This document shows, piece by piece, positions 47,798-58,363 of a stretch of 64,000 bases of DNA. The DNA is taken from assembly GCA_902777385.1 (NCBI GenBank), contig CACYTP010000002.1, positions 124,001 to 188,000 on the forward strand, read 5' to 3'. A program made the position numbers and the translations under genes. Position 1 is the first letter of the stretch. Every line of letters starts with the position of its first letter. The notes under the pieces were generated by a model, which was given only the letters and a program-made list of their open reading frames with translations, was not told the DNA's origin and did no database searches. This DNA comes from an uncultured bacterium (GTDB lineage: Bacteria > Cyanobacteriota > Vampirovibrionia > Gastranaerophilales > Gastranaerophilaceae).

Positions 47798-48958
47798 ATG
47801 GATTTTAAAGAATTGAACAAACGCTTTGAGAAAGAACTAGATTTATCAATATTGCAAAAAGAAAAAATTTTTTCGAGATACATATTAATACGTTCTTTAG
47901 GAGAAGAACATATCTGTGAAATTCTTAATAATAACAACATAAAACCACTTTCTAAGAGAAAAGATGACCTTTTTGAACAATTGTTTAATACAAAAATCGG
48001 AAATCAAGAAATAATTTCATATATAAAAGATAAATATCCCCAAATAAGACGACAAAGACACGAAGAAGAAGCACATCTTCCAGAAATAATTAAAAATTTT
48101 GGAGTGGTATCATGCGGTATTCGTAATGATAATTTAAATGAGGAAAGCAAAAAATTAGTAAGAAATAAATCGATTGCTTCAATGGAAGAGCTGAATAGTG
48201 CAATTGATGACTTATTGCAAAATAAAGTAAAAGGATACTTGCTTTGGGAATATTATAACCAAGCTACAAATGACTTAATTGAACACTTGTTTAATGATAA
48301 TGAAAATGTTATTCCTACATTAAGAAAAATAAAATACGTTGATTTTATGATAGAAATAAATGGGGAAATTGTTCCATTTGATTTAAAAATCACTCATATT
48401 TCTGACGATTATTTTAATTGTTTGTCATCTGGACTAACCCCTGATGGTAATCATGATTCTTATCATGTTGGTTCAAGTGTAAATGAATTTCAACAAATAA
48501 AGGATTATTACAGATCAATAAAGCGTACTTATAATTTACCTAATTATGGAGATTTAAAAAAATCAGAAATTATTGAAGTCTTAAAAAGCAAACATATTAG
48601 TGCAATAGATGAAAAATTAAACGAATTTTATTTAAAAAGACTAGATATGGTTAATTCTCTTGAACAAAATAAAAAATCTATTGAGTGGTGGAATTACAAA
48701 TTTCAAGGAGAAAGACTATTTAAAAACAATAACAGATTTTACATTTTTTTGGTCTATGATGATAGCTTTGATGATGCAAGACCATTAAAGGGAAAAATTG
48801 AGTTAATTGCTGACAAAGTAAAAACAGAACTTAATAAGCTTAAAAATGGTGAGTATAACATAATCAAATATTATTATGACAAAGAACAGAGTAAAAGTGG
48901 GGCTTATGAAATTATATCGACCTCTGTTTTAATATCAAGCCATTGCGAGTGCTGCTAA
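47798..48958 (+). CDS. Probable restriction endonuclease (PD-(D/E)xK-like)
   Basis: The 386-residue protein has no family I can name, but residues 178-200 (IKYVDFMIEINGEIVPFDLKITH) show the nuclease pattern of an Asp at the end of one strand (Asp182) and D-x-K in the next (Asp195-Leu-Lys197). The gene overlaps the end of the convergent methyltransferase by 24 bp, a typical restriction-modification pairing. The rest is helical with many charged residues. Sequence specificity is unknown. GGGGGTATTTC precedes the ATG. Confidence 0.68.
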   Translation: MDFKELNKRFEKELDLSILQKEKIFSRYILIRSLGEEHICEILNNNNIKPLSKRKDDLFEQLFNTKIGNQEIISYIKDKYPQIRRQRHEEEAHLPEIIKNFGVVSCGIRNDNLNEESKKLVRNKSIASMEELNSAIDDLLQNKVKGYLLWEYYNQATNDLIEHLFNDNENVIPTLRKIKYVDFMIEINGEIVPFDLKITHISDDYFNCLSSGLTPDGNHDSYHVGSSVNEFQQIKDYYRSIKRTYNLPNYGDLKKSEIIEVLKSKHISAIDEKLNEFYLKRLDMVNSLEQNKKSIEWWNYKFQGERLFKNNNRFYIFLVYDDSFDDARPLKGKIELIADKVKTELNKLKNGEYNIIKYYYDKEQSKSGAYEIISTSVLISSHCECC

Positions 48959-50494
48959 TATCGGCTTTTGATTCCACATGCCATAATCATCAATATCAAA
49001 ATTGTTTTTAAGAAGACTAATAATATCAATATTTCCTAGTGAAATTCTATTTTTTAATATATAGTTGATAATATTGAGATAAATATCATTAGTCGAAAGG
49101 CTCTTTTTGTATAGTTCATCTGAAATAAGATCTGTTAATTTCGTAATAAGTTTTTCTTTATCGATGAGTTGTAAATTTTTTATATTTGTCTTTTTAAATG
49201 TAAGTAAAAGATCACCTTCAACAGTTATTTTTCTATTTAGTTGTCTTGGAGCAAGTGTTTTCTGTTTTAGCAGTTCCGCTTGTTCAAATGAAAAACCATT
49301 CATAAAACAGGCATCAATTAGCGATGACCATTCTTCGCCATATAATGAATGAAAACTAATAGTGAAATATTTTTCCGGTTTTAATACTCTTGAAATTTCA
49401 CTAATTGCTTTATTTAGATCAGATTTGTATTGGGTATTATTTTTATTTCTTATTTTACTATCGCTAATTACAATTTCATTTTCATAATCTACTTGCTTGG
49501 ATAACCAAGTATTCCAGATAATACTTTGCTCAAAATAAGGAACAGTATCACCATAAGGAGGATCTGTGAATATGAAATCAATAGAATCGTTTGGAATAGA
49601 TAATTTTTTTGCATCATTATTTATAATCTTATATGACAAATTTATATTTTTAATTTTAGAACAGAAATCTTTTTTCCCTGCAATTATTTTTTCTATTCGA
49701 TTTTTAAAGTAATGAAATACATTATTTTCAATATAATTACTTGCAATATAGAAACCTGTCATCCATGCACCCTGTGACATCTTGCCTCTGGATTTTATCG
49801 GAGGTACAAGTTTAGAACAATTTGCCATATTAGACAAAAATGCCAACATTAAATATTCTTTTAAGGCTTCGTTTTCTATGCTTTGAATTTTGTTATATAA
49901 AAGTGAATGACAATATAGTGTTCTAATTGTAAATAAGTCATCTGTGGTCATATTTTCTTTTGCACTAATGCGAGAATTCTGTATCAAATATGACGATGGA
50001 TGAGATGGAATCACCAAGTTTTTTTCTATATTTAATATTTTTTGAGCCTCATCTTCTGATATATCTTGTTCAAATGCCTGTTTGGAACAAGAACATTTAA
50101 CCTTATGACATAATGGTTTGTCGTTATTCTTATCTCTTAGGGTAGATATAACGTTTGCTTGTTTTCCGCATTTTGAACAAGTAGTAGTATACAACTTTTC
50201 TTCTGTATTTGATAACTCACCAATGATTGTTTTAAAGGTTTCTTTTATATGCTTTTCGTTAAAATCATTTTTCAATAATTGGTTTTGAATAAAACCGGCA
50301 ATAGGATTTAAATCATTGAGAACGACTTTTCTGTTGTTTAATAATGCTTCGCAACCAAAGACTCCGTATCCAGCAAAAGGATCAAACAAAACATCATCAG
50401 GTTTTGAATATGCTTTTATAATTTTATCAAAACCAAAAGCTGGTTTTTTCCCCCAATATTTATGCATTTCATATCTATCGTGCTTTTGCTTCAT
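48935..50494 (-). CDS. DNA methyltransferase with internal zinc finger
   Basis: The 519-residue protein starts RYEMHKYWGKKPAFGFDKII, a motif seen in N6-adenine/N4-cytosine methylases of the DUF1156-like type. The SAM site is FDPFAGYGVFG (37-47) and the catalytic motif TDPPYGDTVPYF lies further on, so the order is SAM motif then DPPY. A zinc finger (TTCSKCGKQ ... CHKVKCSCSK, about 106-136) is inserted between them. It probably protects the host from the adjacent convergent nuclease. AGAGGTATTTA precedes the ATG. Confidence 0.88.
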   Translation of the reverse strand: MKQKHDRYEMHKYWGKKPAFGFDKIIKAYSKPDDVLFDPFAGYGVFGCEALLNNRKVVLNDLNPIAGFIQNQLLKNDFNEKHIKETFKTIIGELSNTEEKLYTTTCSKCGKQANVISTLRDKNNDKPLCHKVKCSCSKQAFEQDISEDEAQKILNIEKNLVIPSHPSSYLIQNSRISAKENMTTDDLFTIRTLYCHSLLYNKIQSIENEALKEYLMLAFLSNMANCSKLVPPIKSRGKMSQGAWMTGFYIASNYIENNVFHYFKNRIEKIIAGKKDFCSKIKNINLSYKIINNDAKKLSIPNDSIDFIFTDPPYGDTVPYFEQSIIWNTWLSKQVDYENEIVISDSKIRNKNNTQYKSDLNKAISEISRVLKPEKYFTISFHSLYGEEWSSLIDACFMNGFSFEQAELLKQKTLAPRQLNRKITVEGDLLLTFKKTNIKNLQLIDKEKLITKLTDLISDELYKKSLSTNDIYLNIINYILKNRISLGNIDIISLLKNNFDIDDYGMWNQKPILAALAMA

Positions 50495-50578
50495 TAAATA
50501 CCTCTAGTAGTTATTATATAATGAATATTCTTAAAATACTTTTTGTAAAGAAAATTCGAAACATTAGAACATATAAAA

Positions 50579-53500
50579 CTATATTAAGCTTTCAGTTTCA
50601 ATCAAATATTTTGCATTAAAAAATATTCTTTTTGCGAGATCTATATCATTTGAGTTTTCAAACATATTAAGTATGTTTTCTATAACATAAAAATTTTTTC
50701 TTTCTCCAATTAATTCTATTACATCGGAACAAATTTTGAAGGCTCTTAAATCTTTATATGCAACAAACCAATCATGCAACACATTTACCAATATCTGTTT
50801 TTCTTTTTCTGTAATGTTTGAATATTTTTTATTATAATCTAGTCCAAAGTCCCAATAATTACTAATGACTTCATTATTGTTATATATTTCATCTAATTTT
50901 TGTTTATAAAAAATATCATCTTTACTATTTAGGTCATATTTATCAATATCTTCTTTATTTACATATTTTAATATCTGATCGTATGCATTACTGTTTGGAA
51001 TTTTGTTTTTAGATGTTCTAATAATTTGTGCAAGGCTTTCTGAAGTAATATATGGTGCTAATTTTGCAATTCTATTTAGTATATCTTCATTGATTTCTTT
51101 TAATTTTTTATCGCTCGAAAATTTTGTATTTAGTAAACATAGATTTATTTCAAATTTTTGACCTTTTTCTTTGAAATAATTATTGAGAAGATTTGTTGTT
51201 CTTTGAGTTCCAATGATAATCAATGCTTCTTGAAAGTATTTTTGATCTTTATATTCTTCAAAACAAGATAATGCAATATCTCCCGCATCATTTTTGTCTA
51301 TCCTTATTAATAATACAGAAAGAGCAATTGAGCCATTCTCTTTATTCTCATAATTGTTGAATAAATCAACAATAAAAGGGGTTAATGACCTATCCCAAAT
51401 ATGTTGTAGTTCAACAATATAAGAATCAATACTCTTTTTTTGCGTTATAAGTTCACATAAGTTTTCTGTAACGGTTTTATCATTTAATCTGGTACGAAGT
51501 ACGCAAGATAGCGTATAAACATTATTTTGAATGTCTTTTAGAGTTTCCAAATTTTTTAAATCATTTAGATCATCATTGGTTATATACGGAGCATACATGT
51601 GCAAAGCTTTATATCTATATTTGCTATCTTCATTTTTCTTAGTCCAAATAGATTTTAATTTTTTTAAAGTATCCTGATTAATTATTTTATTTCTGTCTGT
51701 TATACTTAATAAAAGTCTGTTATTATCAGCATAGTATTTTACTTTATAGTCATATACTTTTGGACTATCTATGTGCTGTAACAAGCCAACAATATATCCT
51801 TCATTTTCTCCTGCTAATTTAGCATAATTAATAAGAAATTCTATTGTATTATCAGAAAGTTCATAGATAGATCTTGATAGTAAACCATATATACTTGAAC
51901 GAAGCGAAAATGAATTACCATCAATATATTCATCACTCATTGATAACCAATAATCCATAAGTATAGTTAATAGTTCACGGCTGTTTGAATTATAGCATTT
52001 TAAAAGAGCAAAAATACAATGTGCAACTATGTCATCTTTATTTAATTTATTCCAAATGTTTTCTACACAATCATTGATATCAGTGGTTTCTAATAATGCT
52101 GAAATTATTAAAGCTGTTTTTATATGTGGCATATTAAGAGCTTTTATTAAACTTCTACAACAATTATTTATGGACTCTTTAGAAAAATTCGTTTTTATTT
52201 CAATTATACATTGGTTAAAATTATAATCATTGATATATAATTCCCCTGTGCTATTTAACCATCTATGATAATAATTTAAGCCTGCTATTAAATCTCCATG
52301 TTTAAATTGTAAAAGTTGCAAACCATCTGAGCTAATTTCTTTTATCTGGTTATTGTATTTTTGTTTTATGCTATCCAAAAAAGTTTTATTGGTTGTATTT
52401 GCTAATACTTGATTTGCATAATATTCTATGTTATTAGAATATGAGCCTATATTTATCATATTATTATTTTTTTTAATACCATTTTTTGTAAAAATATTGA
52501 AATTTTTATCAATGAAAATGTCCTTAAAAGTATCTAAAACAAATCCTGATAGATGATTTGTATTAAAATCAATGTAATTAATTGTATTTAATATTGCAAT
52601 TGGATTACTTTTTTGAATGTATTGAATTTTATCATCAGAAAGACTCGTATAAGCTATATATTCACCCAAGATTTCGTTGTAATAAGGATTTGATAAAATA
52701 TCATTTGAAACCTGTTCTTGCTTTAATAATGACTGTACTTGTAAGAAACGCTTTAATCTGTCGTGTCTGAATACTATATTTTCTTTATCTAATTTGCAAA
52801 TTTTTTCATTTTTTAATATAGGACGAATTTTATCCATTTCAACAATTTCTGATAATTTAGTATTTTGTCTAGCGTTCTTAATCTCGTCATATATTAATGA
52901 ATATAATGCATTCTTATATTCTTCTGCATAAAAATCAGGATTGTTTTTTTCTATTTCACAAAATACATTATCTACAAACAAATTACATATTTGATCAACT
53001 GTTTCATTAGTTAATTGTCGAATTTGGGCAGAAGACAGTTCTTCCATTAAACCGATTAAATAAGGATCATTATTTAATAATTTAATAATTTCTTTTTTCT
53101 TTAAATTTGATAAAACTATGTTTTTTTGAATTAATATTTTTTCTAAAGCATTTTCTGCTTCAATATTTTCATAATTATTGATATAAAATACATTGCATTC
53201 TTCATTGTCACAATCTTCTTTATTTATATTCCAAATAGGGCAAACAATCCGAATATTATGTTTATTTGTACTAATAACTGAAGATATAAATTTAAATTTT
53301 TCTTTTAATGATTTATTCATAATAGGATTTACATTATCAATAATCAGTAATAAACCATCTCTTGTATATAGCTCTTTAAAATAAGGATAATATTCCTCTC
53401 TAAAATTAACATCTGCTTCCTTAAGTGCATCTATAATCCAATGTTCATAATTTTCATGAGCATTTACCATTTCAGATTTAATCCATAATGCAAATTTATT

Positions 53501-54226
53501 ATTTTCAATATATTTTTTTGCGGAAGAATAACACAAATTTGATTTACCATTGCCTGAAGGTGAAACAAGATAAATCAATTTATTTGATTGTTCAATTTCA
53601 CTATAAAAAGCACTTTCTCTGTCTCTACTTATACTTAATTTATCATTATAATAAACAAAGTTTTTATAAAATTCTAAATTCCGCAAGCACCAATTCTTAT
53701 AGTCATCCTTTGTATTATAATACCTTTTTAAATATTCAATATCATTTTTTGAAAAATATGATTCTTTGATTAAATTTGAATATTTCGCTAAATTATAAGA
53801 AATAATTTCTTCAAAATTTTCAAGGGAAAAACATTGTATTTCTATATCGTGTTTCTTTGTTTTTGCATAATTAATTATGTGCTTCTTGGCGTCAGTATTA
53901 TTTGTTGGAATACCTTGATTAGAACATAAAATAATTTTTGAGATATCAGCTATTTCTTCTATACAACGATCAATATCATGCTTCGGTTTTTTCTCATTTT
54001 TAGACCAATAGGTATCTTCAACGCTAATTTGCAAACAAACTTGATTATCTGCGACAAGTAAATAATCCGGAGTTCCAGCTCTAGTATTACCATCAGATGT
54101 TGCACCTCTACGTTCAAAATCAAGACTAAAATGGATCTTAAAAAATTCCTGACAAAAAGATTGAAACCTACCCTGTTCCAAACACCTAATATTTCTAGAA
54201 ATTGTGTCTATTACAACATCATTCAT
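50579..54226 (-). CDS. Avs-like STAND NTPase with N-terminal nuclease-like domain
   Basis: A 1215-residue protein. Residues 1-140 resemble a PD-(D/E)xK domain (RRGATSDGNTRAGTPDYLL ... VCLQISVED), although the E-x-K position reads Q-I-S. The central NTPase has Walker A SPSGNGKS (222-229) and Walker B LLLIIDNVN (292-300), followed by a winged-helix-like region and about 650 residues of alpha-helical repeats. This effector-STAND-repeat order is that of Avs (antiviral STAND) proteins, which recognise a phage protein through the repeats and then fire the N-terminal effector. It has no signal peptide or membrane helix and sits beside a restriction-modification pair. Confidence 0.8.
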   Translation of the reverse strand: MNDVVIDTISRNIRCLEQGRFQSFCQEFFKIHFSLDFERRGATSDGNTRAGTPDYLLVADNQVCLQISVEDTYWSKNEKKPKHDIDRCIEEIADISKIILCSNQGIPTNNTDAKKHIINYAKTKKHDIEIQCFSLENFEEIISYNLAKYSNLIKESYFSKNDIEYLKRYYNTKDDYKNWCLRNLEFYKNFVYYNDKLSISRDRESAFYSEIEQSNKLIYLVSPSGNGKSNLCYSSAKKYIENNKFALWIKSEMVNAHENYEHWIIDALKEADVNFREEYYPYFKELYTRDGLLLIIDNVNPIMNKSLKEKFKFISSVISTNKHNIRIVCPIWNINKEDCDNEECNVFYINNYENIEAENALEKILIQKNIVLSNLKKKEIIKLLNNDPYLIGLMEELSSAQIRQLTNETVDQICNLFVDNVFCEIEKNNPDFYAEEYKNALYSLIYDEIKNARQNTKLSEIVEMDKIRPILKNEKICKLDKENIVFRHDRLKRFLQVQSLLKQEQVSNDILSNPYYNEILGEYIAYTSLSDDKIQYIQKSNPIAILNTINYIDFNTNHLSGFVLDTFKDIFIDKNFNIFTKNGIKKNNNMINIGSYSNNIEYYANQVLANTTNKTFLDSIKQKYNNQIKEISSDGLQLLQFKHGDLIAGLNYYHRWLNSTGELYINDYNFNQCIIEIKTNFSKESINNCCRSLIKALNMPHIKTALIISALLETTDINDCVENIWNKLNKDDIVAHCIFALLKCYNSNSRELLTILMDYWLSMSDEYIDGNSFSLRSSIYGLLSRSIYELSDNTIEFLINYAKLAGENEGYIVGLLQHIDSPKVYDYKVKYYADNNRLLLSITDRNKIINQDTLKKLKSIWTKKNEDSKYRYKALHMYAPYITNDDLNDLKNLETLKDIQNNVYTLSCVLRTRLNDKTVTENLCELITQKKSIDSYIVELQHIWDRSLTPFIVDLFNNYENKENGSIALSVLLIRIDKNDAGDIALSCFEEYKDQKYFQEALIIIGTQRTTNLLNNYFKEKGQKFEINLCLLNTKFSSDKKLKEINEDILNRIAKLAPYITSESLAQIIRTSKNKIPNSNAYDQILKYVNKEDIDKYDLNSKDDIFYKQKLDEIYNNNEVISNYWDFGLDYNKKYSNITEKEKQILVNVLHDWFVAYKDLRAFKICSDVIELIGERKNFYVIENILNMFENSNDIDLAKRIFFNAKYLIETESLI

Positions 54227-55390: not shown

Positions 55391-55414
55391 TATGTTATGG
55401 CATGCCATAACATA
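55391..55414. promoter_or_regulatory. 24-bp perfect palindrome (operator) upstream of bioB
   Basis: A perfect inverted repeat of two 12-bp arms (TATGTTATGGCA and its complement) centred at 55402/55403. On the minus strand TTGCGA and TATGTT, 17 bp apart, form a likely bioB promoter whose -10 lies in the palindrome, so binding would repress bioB. The related half TATGCTATG... reappears just outside and ATGTTATGCTATACC after the DtxR-like gene at 55955. The DtxR-like protein encoded 52 bp away is a candidate binder. Confidence 0.7.
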
Positions 55415-55465: not shown

Positions 55466-55954
55466 ATGGAAAACAAATTAACAAAAAGTTTGGAAAACTA
55501 TCTTTTGACAATTGATACTTTATTGGAAAAGAAAGAAACTATAATAGTTAAAGATATTGCAGAATACTTGAAAATCGGCGGTGCTTCAACTTCTGAAGCT
55601 ATTAAAAAATTACGACAAAAGGGCTATATAAATTACGAGCCGTACGGAAATATTACTCTTACCCCTCTTGGTAAAAAAACAGTGATAATAATGAAATACC
55701 GCCACAATACGATTACTAAATTTTTAAACAGAGTTTTGGATATTAACATAAAAGATGCAGAATCAAATGCCGAAAAAATGGAATACTCAATGACAGAAGA
55801 TGTTTTGACAAGACTGGTAAATTTTATGGATTTCATGGAACAATGCACCTGCAAAGAGCCTAAATGGCTAAAAAGCTGTAAATCTTCATTGGAAAAAGGA
55901 AAATTAAGCGACAAATGTCAATCCTGTCAGGGCGGATGTTGTTGCAACAAATAA
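55466..55954 (+). CDS. DtxR/MntR-family metal-dependent regulator with cysteine-rich tail
   Basis: The 162-residue protein starts with the family's winged helix (SLENYLLTIDTLLEK ... VKDIAEYLKIGGASTSEAIKKLRQKGYINYEPYGNITLTPLGKK), followed by the dimerisation helix (MKYRHNTITKFLNRVL) and a metal-binding region. The C-terminus is unusual: CTCKEPKWLKSCKSSLEKGK and CQSCQGGCCCNK give nine cysteines in about 38 residues, a probable metal or cluster site. DtxR members repress metal uptake or homeostasis genes when metal is bound. A TATAAT lies 1 bp before the ATG, so the transcription start is unclear. Confidence 0.85.
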   Translation: MENKLTKSLENYLLTIDTLLEKKETIIVKDIAEYLKIGGASTSEAIKKLRQKGYINYEPYGNITLTPLGKKTVIIMKYRHNTITKFLNRVLDINIKDAESNAEKMEYSMTEDVLTRLVNFMDFMEQCTCKEPKWLKSCKSSLEKGKLSDKCQSCQGGCCCNK

Positions 55955-56045
55955 AATGTTATGCTATACCTAAACATGTTGCAAATAATAAATTTTATCC
56001 AAATTTATTATTGACAGATTATTTATTTTGGTGTTTTATAAAAAT

Positions 56046-56102
56046 ATGAGATACATAAATTTGAATAAATTAATTTGTTGTTGCTGTAAGTCTTGTTGTT
56101 AA
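56046..56102 (+). CDS. 18-residue cysteine-rich leader peptide
   Basis: ATG at 56046 reads MRYINLNKLICCCCKSCC then stop: six cysteines in the last eight residues. TTGACA lies at 56011-56016 upstream and no Shine-Dalgarno sequence is seen, so the message may be leaderless. The stop codon overlaps a segment (56100-56108) that can pair with the left arm of the terminator at 56149-56180. The layout is that of an amino-acid attenuation leader sensing cysteine or cysteinyl-tRNA. Whether it is translated is not proved. Confidence 0.5.
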   Translation: MRYINLNKLICCCCKSCC

Positions 56103-56148
56103 GAACTTACTTATAATTTTGCACGCAAATTTTAGTTAGAAATATTAT

Positions 56149-56183
56149 AAACAAGTTCTTATTTTTTTAAGAACTTGTTTTTT
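56149..56183 (+). terminator. Attenuator-type terminator in front of the 504-aa gene
   Basis: A 13-bp perfect stem (56149-56161 with 56168-56180) with a 6-nt loop is followed by T residues and, immediately, the AAGGAG of the next gene. Segment 56100-56108 is complementary to 56153-56161, so an alternative upstream hairpin would block the terminator. Confidence 0.75.
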
Positions 56184-56198
56184 AAGGAGAAATTACAA

Positions 56199-57710
56199 AT
56201 GAAAATAGATAAGATAAATAATGCCCCAAATTTTACCGCTGCCATGGGCGGATTATCAAATGCCCTTTATACATTGAGTAACAATGATATGCTAAACGCA
56301 TCATTTGTTGATATTTTTGCGATGGATACCCCAAGAACCATAGTAGAAACTAAAAACAGAGGCAAACAAGCAGGAATTGAAATGGGTTTTAGGGAATACA
56401 CAGGAACTTTTATTGCAGAGTTTTCTGCCGCACTTTTTGCCGTAATCGCTTCAAAATTTATCTCTAAAAGATTAACCCCAAATGTAAAAGTAAATTCAGG
56501 TTCTTGGATTACAAATAACGGTCTTGATGTATTTTCTGACATTTACAATAAATCAGATAAAACTCCGAAAAGTTATGTTGAAAATCTCCTTAATTCAATA
56601 TCAGGTCAAGTCGGTTCTAAAACCAAAAATTTTGCTGATATTGCTCAAAACAAGAAGCAATCTGTAATTGAGAAGTTAACAAATTTAATTACAGATAAAT
56701 CAATGGACAAAAAGACAAATAAAAAAATATTAACCGAAATTCAAGATGAAATAATAAATATTCTTGGTGCTGATAATTCTATAAAAATTAAATCAGGTAA
56801 AAATGAAGTAACTTCAAACCTTACTCATACACTAAGAGATATTGTTGATTCCGGTAGAAACATTTTCTTCTCCGAAACCAAACAATTGCCAAGAGAAATA
56901 ATATCAAAATTAAAACGAATGAATAATTTGCGTATTGGTATTGCTATACCTTTATCTATGGGGCTTGCAATTACAAACCAATATCTCAACAGATATTTAA
57001 CAAAGAAAAGGACCGGCATTGATAATTTTGTAGGTGAAAACGGTTACGAAAATAATGTGAAAGATAAAAATGAAAAGAAAAAAGAGAAAGGTCTATGGCT
57101 AAAAAAAATAATATCCGCTGGGATTTTTGTATTAATGCTTACCAAAGTTATGGGGGTTAAAAAACCTGTTGACTTAATTAAAAAACTTGAATTTGACGGA
57201 CCAGCAACAAGCGGAAATGCTATTAAAACAATATATGGAACTCTTATTTTAGGCAGAATTTTTGCTTCAAAAGATTCAACAGAATTAAGAGAAACAAATA
57301 TTAGAGATTACCTAGGCTTTTTAAATTGGTTAGTACTAGGCGGTTTTGTTGCAAAAGGTGTAGGGCAAGCATTTGATCCAAAACAAGAAAACTTGTTTAA
57401 TATTTCAAAATCAGGCAAAGGAATAAAACATTGGCTTCAAGATGTATCACTCAAATCTCAAAAGGAAATAATTGCACAAGGTGGTAATGTTGAAAAGAAT
57501 TTAAGAAAATTAAATATTGCACAGATGTCAGGAATTGCATATTCTGCTATAATGCTCGGTGTACTATTACCTAAATTAAATATTTGGATGACAAGGGGCA
57601 AGCATAATAAAAAACAAAACATTACAAACAGTGTAAAACCGAATAATGTAACTTTTAAATCAGGATTCGTTTCTATGGAAGAATTCACTCATAAACAACA
57701 AAATAAATAA
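56199..57710 (+). CDS. Membrane protein with N-terminal APNFTA tag, 503 aa
   Basis: ATG at 56199 has AAGGAG at good spacing; the frame from 56175 would start inside the terminator. It begins MKIDKINNAPNFTAAMGG, a member of the NxFT-tagged group. Hydrophobic segments occur at about 78-95 (FIAEFSAALFAVIASKF), 250-266, 300-318, 375-392 and near the end (MSGIAYSAIMLGVLLPKLNIW), with charged linkers between them. The C-terminus repeats a tag-like NNVTFKSGF. No cysteines are evident, so the cysteine-rich leader is not matched by the product. Function unknown; expressed with the next gene (14-bp gap). Confidence 0.68.
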   Translation: MKIDKINNAPNFTAAMGGLSNALYTLSNNDMLNASFVDIFAMDTPRTIVETKNRGKQAGIEMGFREYTGTFIAEFSAALFAVIASKFISKRLTPNVKVNSGSWITNNGLDVFSDIYNKSDKTPKSYVENLLNSISGQVGSKTKNFADIAQNKKQSVIEKLTNLITDKSMDKKTNKKILTEIQDEIINILGADNSIKIKSGKNEVTSNLTHTLRDIVDSGRNIFFSETKQLPREIISKLKRMNNLRIGIAIPLSMGLAITNQYLNRYLTKKRTGIDNFVGENGYENNVKDKNEKKKEKGLWLKKIISAGIFVLMLTKVMGVKKPVDLIKKLEFDGPATSGNAIKTIYGTLILGRIFASKDSTELRETNIRDYLGFLNWLVLGGFVAKGVGQAFDPKQENLFNISKSGKGIKHWLQDVSLKSQKEIIAQGGNVEKNLRKLNIAQMSGIAYSAIMLGVLLPKLNIWMTRGKHNKKQNITNSVKPNNVTFKSGFVSMEEFTHKQQNK

Positions 57711-57724
57711 TAACAGGAGAAAAA

Positions 57725-58363
57725 ATGAAAAAGATTATATGTTATGGAGATTCAAATACATTCGGATATAACCCGAAAGACGGCTCAAGGTTTGACGAAA
57801 ATATTCGATGGCCTTCTGTCTTACAAAAGAATCTGGGAACGAATTATAAAGTTATAAATGAAGGTGTGTGCGACAGAACAGGATTTGTTTATAACCCAAA
57901 AGGAGTGATATTCTCTGCCCCAAAACATTTCCCTGATTTTATATCGAAATCAGATAATATAGATTTGCTGATTCTCTGGATTGGAACAAATGATTTACAA
58001 TTTCAGTATGATATAAGTTTTAGTGCTATAGAAAATGGTTTAGAAAATTTAATTAAATTAGCTGAAACAAAAGCAAAAAAAATAATTATTATACCGCCTG
58101 TTATGTTAAATGAAAAAGTACTGGAGGGATATTTTAAGTTTCAGTTTGACAAAACAAGTATTATAAAATCCCAAAAAGCCGAAAAGATTTATATAAAATT
58201 AGCAAATGATTATCATTGCGAAATTTTTAACATAAACAAATTCACTAATCCATCTGATTTGGACGGATTACATTATGATGAAAATTCACATAAAATTATC
58301 GCAAACAGATTAAAAGTTTATATTAAAAATAATAATACCATTTGCAGGCAAAATATAATTTAG
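57725..58363 (+). CDS. SGNH/GDSL-type hydrolase
   Basis: The 212-residue protein starts KKIICYGDSNTFGYNP, block I with the nucleophilic Ser (GDSN). Block III Asn is in ILWIGTNDLQF, and the catalytic Asp-x-x-His is DLDGLHYDENSH. It is close in layout to arylesterase/acyl-CoA thioesterase TesA-like and rhamnogalacturonan acetylesterase-like enzymes. No signal peptide, so it acts in the cytoplasm, probably on an acyl or acetyl ester. An AACAGGAG site precedes the ATG. It follows the tagged membrane protein by 14 bp. Confidence 0.88.
   Translation: MKKIICYGDSNTFGYNPKDGSRFDENIRWPSVLQKNLGTNYKVINEGVCDRTGFVYNPKGVIFSAPKHFPDFISKSDNIDLLILWIGTNDLQFQYDISFSAIENGLENLIKLAETKAKKIIIIPPVMLNEKVLEGYFKFQFDKTSIIKSQKAEKIYIKLANDYHCEIFNINKFTNPSDLDGLHYDENSHKIIANRLKVYIKNNNTICRQNII

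Follow-up and report, generated by a model that had tools for sequence, protein, structure and literature searches.

A probable ribosome-mediated cysteine attenuator ahead of a cysteine-free protein in Gastranaerophilales, with a putative change to serine in one clade

What is a reading frame of only 18 codons, ending in a cluster of cysteines, doing in front of a gene whose protein belongs to no known family? The question is raised by a locus of an uncultured bacterium of the Gastranaerophilaceae (GenBank assembly GCA_902777385.1, contig CACYTP010000002.1, positions 124,001 to 188,000 of the forward strand; this whole stretch of 64,000 nt is called the window here, and all coordinates refer to it). 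A first-pass annotation had proposed that ribosomes stalling at the cysteine codons give a signal for antitermination, and this idea gains support from the conserved cysteine run, both competing pairings and their spacing. Very probably the locus is a ribosome-mediated transcription attenuator of the classical kind that reads charged cysteinyl-tRNA, a reading that draws on the parts as seen in the sequence, their conservation, covariation, spacing and context. With ample cysteine the ribosome would pass the CCCC run of the leader open reading frame (ORF), reach the stop codon and cover segment 2, and the terminator formed by segments 3 and 4 would fold. With scarce cysteinyl-tRNA it would halt on CCCC and cover segment 1, leaving segment 2 free to pair with segment 3, so that the terminator would be blocked and the gene transcribed. 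Failing any translation, hairpin 1:2 would sequester segment 2 and termination would be the default. A neighbouring DtxR-like regulator with a cysteine-rich tail would add a second input at the promoter, and in one clade the sensor codons would have been swapped to serine.

The locus holds a complete set of mutually exclusive helices, 1:2, 2:3 and 3:4 (Table 1). Re-reading the sequence returned the same positions for the ORF, the Cys codons, the stop, segment 2 and the terminator as the first-pass annotation had given. Segment 1 (GUAAGU) starts inside the fourth Cys codon, a second group of Cys codons follows at 56094-56099, and UAAGAACUU (56100-56108) is, as had been claimed, exactly complementary to AAGUUCUUA (56153-56161) in segment 3. 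The terminator is a 13-bp hairpin at 56149-56180, with a right arm that merges into UUUUUU (56178-56183), and it indeed lies just upstream of the ribosome-binding site of the next gene. A promoter and terminator scan flagged this hairpin on the minus strand only, and the miss on the plus strand is probably explained by the U-tract being common to the base of the stem. The earlier annotation had noted neither hairpin 1:2 nor the serine branch, and it did not mention that the promoter is probably leaderless or that the product lacks cysteine. The locus carries features of the trp/his/leu type, namely a run of control codons, exclusive 2:3 and 3:4 pairings, a protector 1:2 over the control codons and a distance compatible with stalling. 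Like the trp, his, leu and thr attenuators (PMC1183508), it has exclusive 1:2, 2:3 and 3:4 helices, an intrinsic terminator before the gene and particular synonymous codons; unlike them, its control codons are Cys (Ser in one clade), its leader is probably leaderless and its target is, in most relatives, a cysteine-free protein of no known family.

Table 1. Features of the attenuator locus and its surroundings, in window coordinates.
Feature	Coordinates	Strand	Details
Perfect palindrome TATGTTATGGCATGCCATAACATA	55391-55414	.	24 nt, 0 mismatches; between bioB-like and DtxR-like genes; candidate operator of the DtxR-like regulator
DtxR/MntR-family regulator with conserved cysteine-rich tail	55466-55954	+	Pfam Fe_dep_repress and Fe_dep_repr_C; MntR-like below the curated cut-off
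Degenerate palindrome copy	55955-55978	.	7 mismatches; 91 nt ahead of the leader ATG
Predicted promoter	56011-56039	+	TTGACA 56011-56016, 17 nt, TTTTAT 56034-56039; transcription predicted to start close to the leader ATG
Leader ORF	56046-56102	+	ATG 56046, 18 codons, stop 56100-56102; product MRYINLNKLICCCCKSCC*; kept in relatives
Sensor, four cysteine codons	56076-56087	+	UGU UGU UGC UGU, from the sequence
Hairpin 1:2 (anti-antiterminator)	56086-56110	+	GUAAGU 56086-56091 pairs with ACUUAC 56105-56110; -7.9 kcal/mol
Segment 2, UAAGAACUU	56100-56108	+	Antiterminator with segment 3; 2:3 = -12.3 kcal/mol
Segment 3, terminator left arm	56149-56161	+
Segment 4, terminator right arm plus U-tract	56168-56183	+	Right arm 56168-56180, U-tract 56178-56183; 3:4 = -14.7 kcal/mol
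Ribosome-binding site	56184-56189	+	AAGGAG, upstream of the gene start at 56199
Downstream gene	56199-57710	+	503-aa protein with hydrophobic segments and no cysteine (composition)
GDSL-type hydrolase	57725-58363	+	Behind the regulated gene

The relatives available for comparison are Candidatus Gastranaerophilales, mostly from rumen and gut. For the family of the downstream gene 80 named loci were gathered and leaders were read in 71 (the window and 70 relatives), with 53 labelled Cys, 17 Ser and one none (L159); four of the Cys labels (L087, L113, L123 and L124) were assigned by eye. The first-pass annotation had put forward conservation of the ORF, the Cys run and the hairpins as the check on its proposal, and a usable leader with a run of Cys or Ser is present in 69 of the 71 homologues, while the pattern named there as refuting it, a terminator kept with the Cys-rich ORF or the competing segment gone, was looked for in the relatives and not seen. 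Examples of Cys leaders are CCCCKSCC, CCCCKFLCKRTYL, CCCKFLCLRT and CCCCKFKGGTY, and of Ser leaders SSSSSKYSGTC, TTSSSSSKSTLSGLGGFSV and SSSSSSSSNKFPTG. The first three Cys codons vary almost solely at third positions, which points to selection there on the amino acid and not on the RNA alone. Segment 2 begins 8-14 nt past the end of the codon run in each of the 31 scored Cys loci and in eight of nine Ser loci, a spacing of about one ribosome footprint that would fit a stalled ribosome sitting over segment 1 with segment 2 free. A plain terminator closing the operon of the regulator gene, accompanied by a spurious Cys-rich ORF, might be argued from the position of that gene directly upstream in the window and from the symmetry of the hairpin, which could terminate both ways; we give it next to no credence against the conserved run, spacing and competing segments, the promoter-like site that the leader has of its own, and the persistence of ORF, segment 2 and terminator together in genomes where the regulator was not found (G007 and G014).

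Covariation speaks for the helices of the attenuator as well. Across 27 close relatives, pairing holds in 95.6% of the cells of helices 1:2 and 3:4, and compensatory changes exceed both shuffles and slid controls; helix 1:2 taken singly is paired in 100% of cells, with compensatory changes at two of six pairs (one sequence each), and helix 3:4 has changes on both sides at four of 13 pairs. In a wider set, segments 2, 3 and 4 change jointly with complementarity kept (UAAGA/UCUUA, GAGGA/UCCUU, UCGAG/CUCGU and CGGG/CCCG), and its 18 distinct types of segments 2 and 3, from loci selected for pairing, are paired in 91% of cells, versus 64% (maximum 82%) after permutation of the partners. An unselected test of the 2:3 match, for which the terminator was picked first and without reference to segment 2, gave p<0.05 in 48 of 69 loci and p<0.01 in 30 of 69 when compared with shuffles.

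Several observations weigh against reading the locus as an attenuator. The fold of the whole leader has z = -1.67, unremarkable for a single locus, and about 1% of shuffled versions of the intervening sequence reach the 2:3 match of the window; the window locus by itself is modestly beyond chance, and the strength of the case comes from the relatives. Helix 2:3 is nearly invariant in the closest of them and hence gains no covariation support there, so that this support rests on the wider comparison, which includes in part loci selected for pairing. The automatic scan returned no significant 2:3 match for about one third of the loci, in some cases through a wrong choice of hairpin. One leader, that of L124, has a stop ahead of the Cys run (GTA TAA ATT TGT), which may reflect a decayed leader or a sequence error. 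Finally, the regions upstream of cysK and cysE in the window's own genome contain no Cys run or leader of this sort.

The element appears to belong to one subfamily, since paralogues of about 30% identity showed no convincing leader, with L071 and its possible CC-type ORF as the one exception, and the close second gene copy in G083 (L067) does carry one. A structured covariance model made from close leaders matches 15 of 240 genomes, and in the window's own genome it finds this leader alone, with other CCCC-type runs listed there. No Rfam leader or riboswitch matched at the curated gathering score, the window yielding only a tRNA. In L071 (genome G092), a distant paralogue, the possible leader ends FCCLRFCNKFK ahead of a terminator-like repeat.

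How the leader would be translated is suggested by its promoter. In most of the close clade 34-36 nt separate TTGACA from the ATG, which places the predicted start at the ATG itself, too close for a ribosome-binding site to fit in between, and the leader ORF is thus probably translated there from a leaderless transcript; most other loci have a distance of 44-60 nt and in many cases an AGGA-like site. The mycobacterial polycysteine ORFs (Canestrari et al., 2020, as cited in PMC9031893 and PMC13236596) are reported to be leaderless short ORFs with consecutive Cys codons, a leaderless start being predicted here from the 34-36 nt spacing, and their cysteine-responsive control of the downstream operon is described as translation attenuation. 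A mechanism in this style, in which translation is attenuated or polarity depends on Rho and the hairpin controls translation of the gene, not its transcription, would share with mycobacteria the probably leaderless poly-Cys ORF (PMC9031893), but it seems very improbable for a hairpin that ends in a U-tract, lies upstream of the ribosome-binding site and has covarying segments 3 and 4. Seliverstov et al. (2005, PMC1262725) reported no conserved terminators for the mycobacterial cysteine leaders, unlike the intrinsic terminator (conserved hairpin and U-tract before the gene) and the antiterminator at this locus. The transcription attenuator favoured here would be a transcription-terminating counterpart to those leaders, and would extend leader-peptide attenuation to uncultured Melainabacteria. 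Similar in design is uORFC-8-2 before cysS of Rhodobacterales (PMC8632094), a short ORF with tandem Cys codons and an intrinsic terminator for which ribosome-mediated attenuation has been predicted; that motif differs in having two Cys codons, a cysteinyl-tRNA synthetase as target and another lineage as host.

A worry of the first-pass annotation was that the downstream gene is no cysteine enzyme. It stands for the window, whose product has no known family, and it does not stand for three relatives (G036, G041 and G196), where the same attenuator precedes cystathionine gamma-lyase (mccB) genes in place of the 503-aa family gene; the metabolic target there is mccB or mccB-mccA. In G036 and G041, mccB comes with a PALP gene of the cysteine-synthase/CBS type (mccA), and mccB-mccA is the reverse-transsulfuration route to cysteine. 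In G196 (L173/L243) a methylthioadenosine phosphorylase-like gene comes first, then the same Cys leader, then an LCM-type methyltransferase gene and mccB. A GDSL hydrolase directly follows mccA in G041 and a GDSL-type ORF follows in G036 too, where the leader sits behind the same DtxR-like gene as in the window; this shared context suggests that the place of the attenuator was kept and its target exchanged. The lyase was found at E<=1e-60 in three of 86 genomes of the window's family, all three among the 11 with no match to the 503-aa family, an exclusivity with a probability of 165/102340 = 0.0016 when relatedness is ignored. Loss of de novo cysteine synthesis, considered as a reason for the system, was dropped, as cysE- and cysK-type genes are present.

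The Ser leaders fall together in the tree of the downstream proteins. On a maximum-likelihood tree the Cys/Ser label requires one change, the Ser rows and L159 forming a group of 18 rows (SH-aLRT 99). Cys leaders occupy both other main branches, for which reason Cys is probably the older state, on a tree rooted at midpoint only. The runs of the Ser clade, which include some Thr, retain the architecture, and their codons are far from random: TCC makes up 45 of 75 serine codons and AGY two of 75, while TCC is rare in the genes around the Ser loci (7.5% of serine codons). Known attenuators prefer particular synonymous codons, which has been explained by selective tRNA charging (PMC1183508). Serine shortage is sensed through TCN codons during translation in the case of SinR of Bacillus subtilis too (PMC3862929), but those codons sit inside the repressor gene, without leader peptide or attenuator.

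The composition of the products follows the same division. Of the 41 proteins of about 500 aa in the larger Cys clade, 38 lack cysteine altogether, and the mean cysteine content in that clade is 0.02% versus 1.59% in neighbouring proteins, and among neighbours of similar size, over all clades, only three of 66 are cysteine-free. In the Ser-clade product serine is the most reduced residue, at 4.40% as compared with 7.31% for the other Cys clade and 7.2% for the Cys clades, and cysteine is higher, at 0.48%. This shift follows a single switch and so amounts to one evolutionary comparison and not to many. Biosynthetic enzymes are reported to be biased against their own amino acid (PMC4209129), and the depletion of these products fits that bias. 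The avoidance of the sensed amino acid supports expression of the product during starvation, and a cysteine-free product would be an unusually clean case of a protein whose synthesis can go on in the absence of its own signal amino acid. On balance we lean slightly towards the view that one attenuator family changed the amino acid it senses from Cys to Ser in a single clade, with the composition of its product changing in step (no cysteine; less serine). It would then be a natural example of an attenuator switching the amino acid that it reads and, to our knowledge, the first serine leader-peptide attenuator; none was found in the literature searched, which is no proof of absence.

As for the 503-aa protein itself, it gave no Pfam or NCBIfam match, and a profile search of PDB sequences found no confident relative. 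The attenuator and locus common with reverse transsulfuration, the serine switch and the hydrophobic segments make acquisition the best guess, and we suggest tentatively, in a proposal that may well prove wrong, that the protein helps to acquire cysteine or serine. If so, this Gastranaerophilales family would be a starvation-expressed factor for cysteine/serine acquisition that reverse transsulfuration can replace, and the attenuator offers a direct functional clue for a protein family that is widespread and lacks known relatives. An N-terminal FKG/FxG-like tag, possibly a localisation signal, is seen in the family and in distant paralogues.

The cysteine-rich tail of the neighbouring regulator, already noticed in the first-pass annotation, belongs to a DtxR/MntR-type protein and is conserved in relatives; in the window and in L002-L022 it reads, in this order, QCxCxEPKW, KCxxC and CC. 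It suggests that, in addition to the usual metal sites, the protein has a sensor for metal, iron-sulfur or thiols. The candidate operator between the bioB-like and DtxR-like genes has its degenerate copy ahead of the leader, and this pair, one at the regulator promoter and one at the leader promoter, recurs in relatives: many Cys loci have a copy with 4-7 mismatches at -90 to -92, and Ser loci never one that good. Palindromes with 5-7 mismatches occur in all eight scored genomes having both the Cys-tailed regulator and a close-type leader, and in genomes lacking that regulator the best palindrome has at least nine mismatches; a second copy of the gene in G083 and a leader of the other clade in G015 depart from this co-occurrence. 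The DtxR-like regulator is probably a second, separate input at the promoter and, its putative site at 55955 being upstream of the promoter, activation is as possible as repression.

Such a neighbour, with its Cys-rich tail and operator-like sites, together with the adjacent thiols in the run, also lends something to a different idea, that metal binding by the nascent Cys-rich peptide, or its reaction with an oxidant, alters the progress of the ribosome, the signal being metal or redox state and not tRNA charging. Peptide-metal control of this sort has been proposed for copper-responsive upstream ORFs (PMC9426467). It is a very unlikely account of this family, in which a whole clade swapped Cys for Ser with the architecture intact, codon identity counts in the Ser runs, mccB and mccA stand under the same element, and the product is depleted in the sensed amino acid.

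Other neighbours of the leader vary among the relatives. Divergent mnmA-like genes, named from sequence as tRNA 2-thiouridylase-like (sulfur transfer), lie beside it in L125, L127, L128, L130, L132, L160 and L177, and divergent bioB-like genes in other relatives. Further upstream in the window, on the minus strand at 48935-54226, an ORF of 519 aa resembling methyltransferases lies beside one of 1215 aa with an ATPase-like stretch, a pair which, judged from sequence alone, is possibly a defence or mobile cassette.
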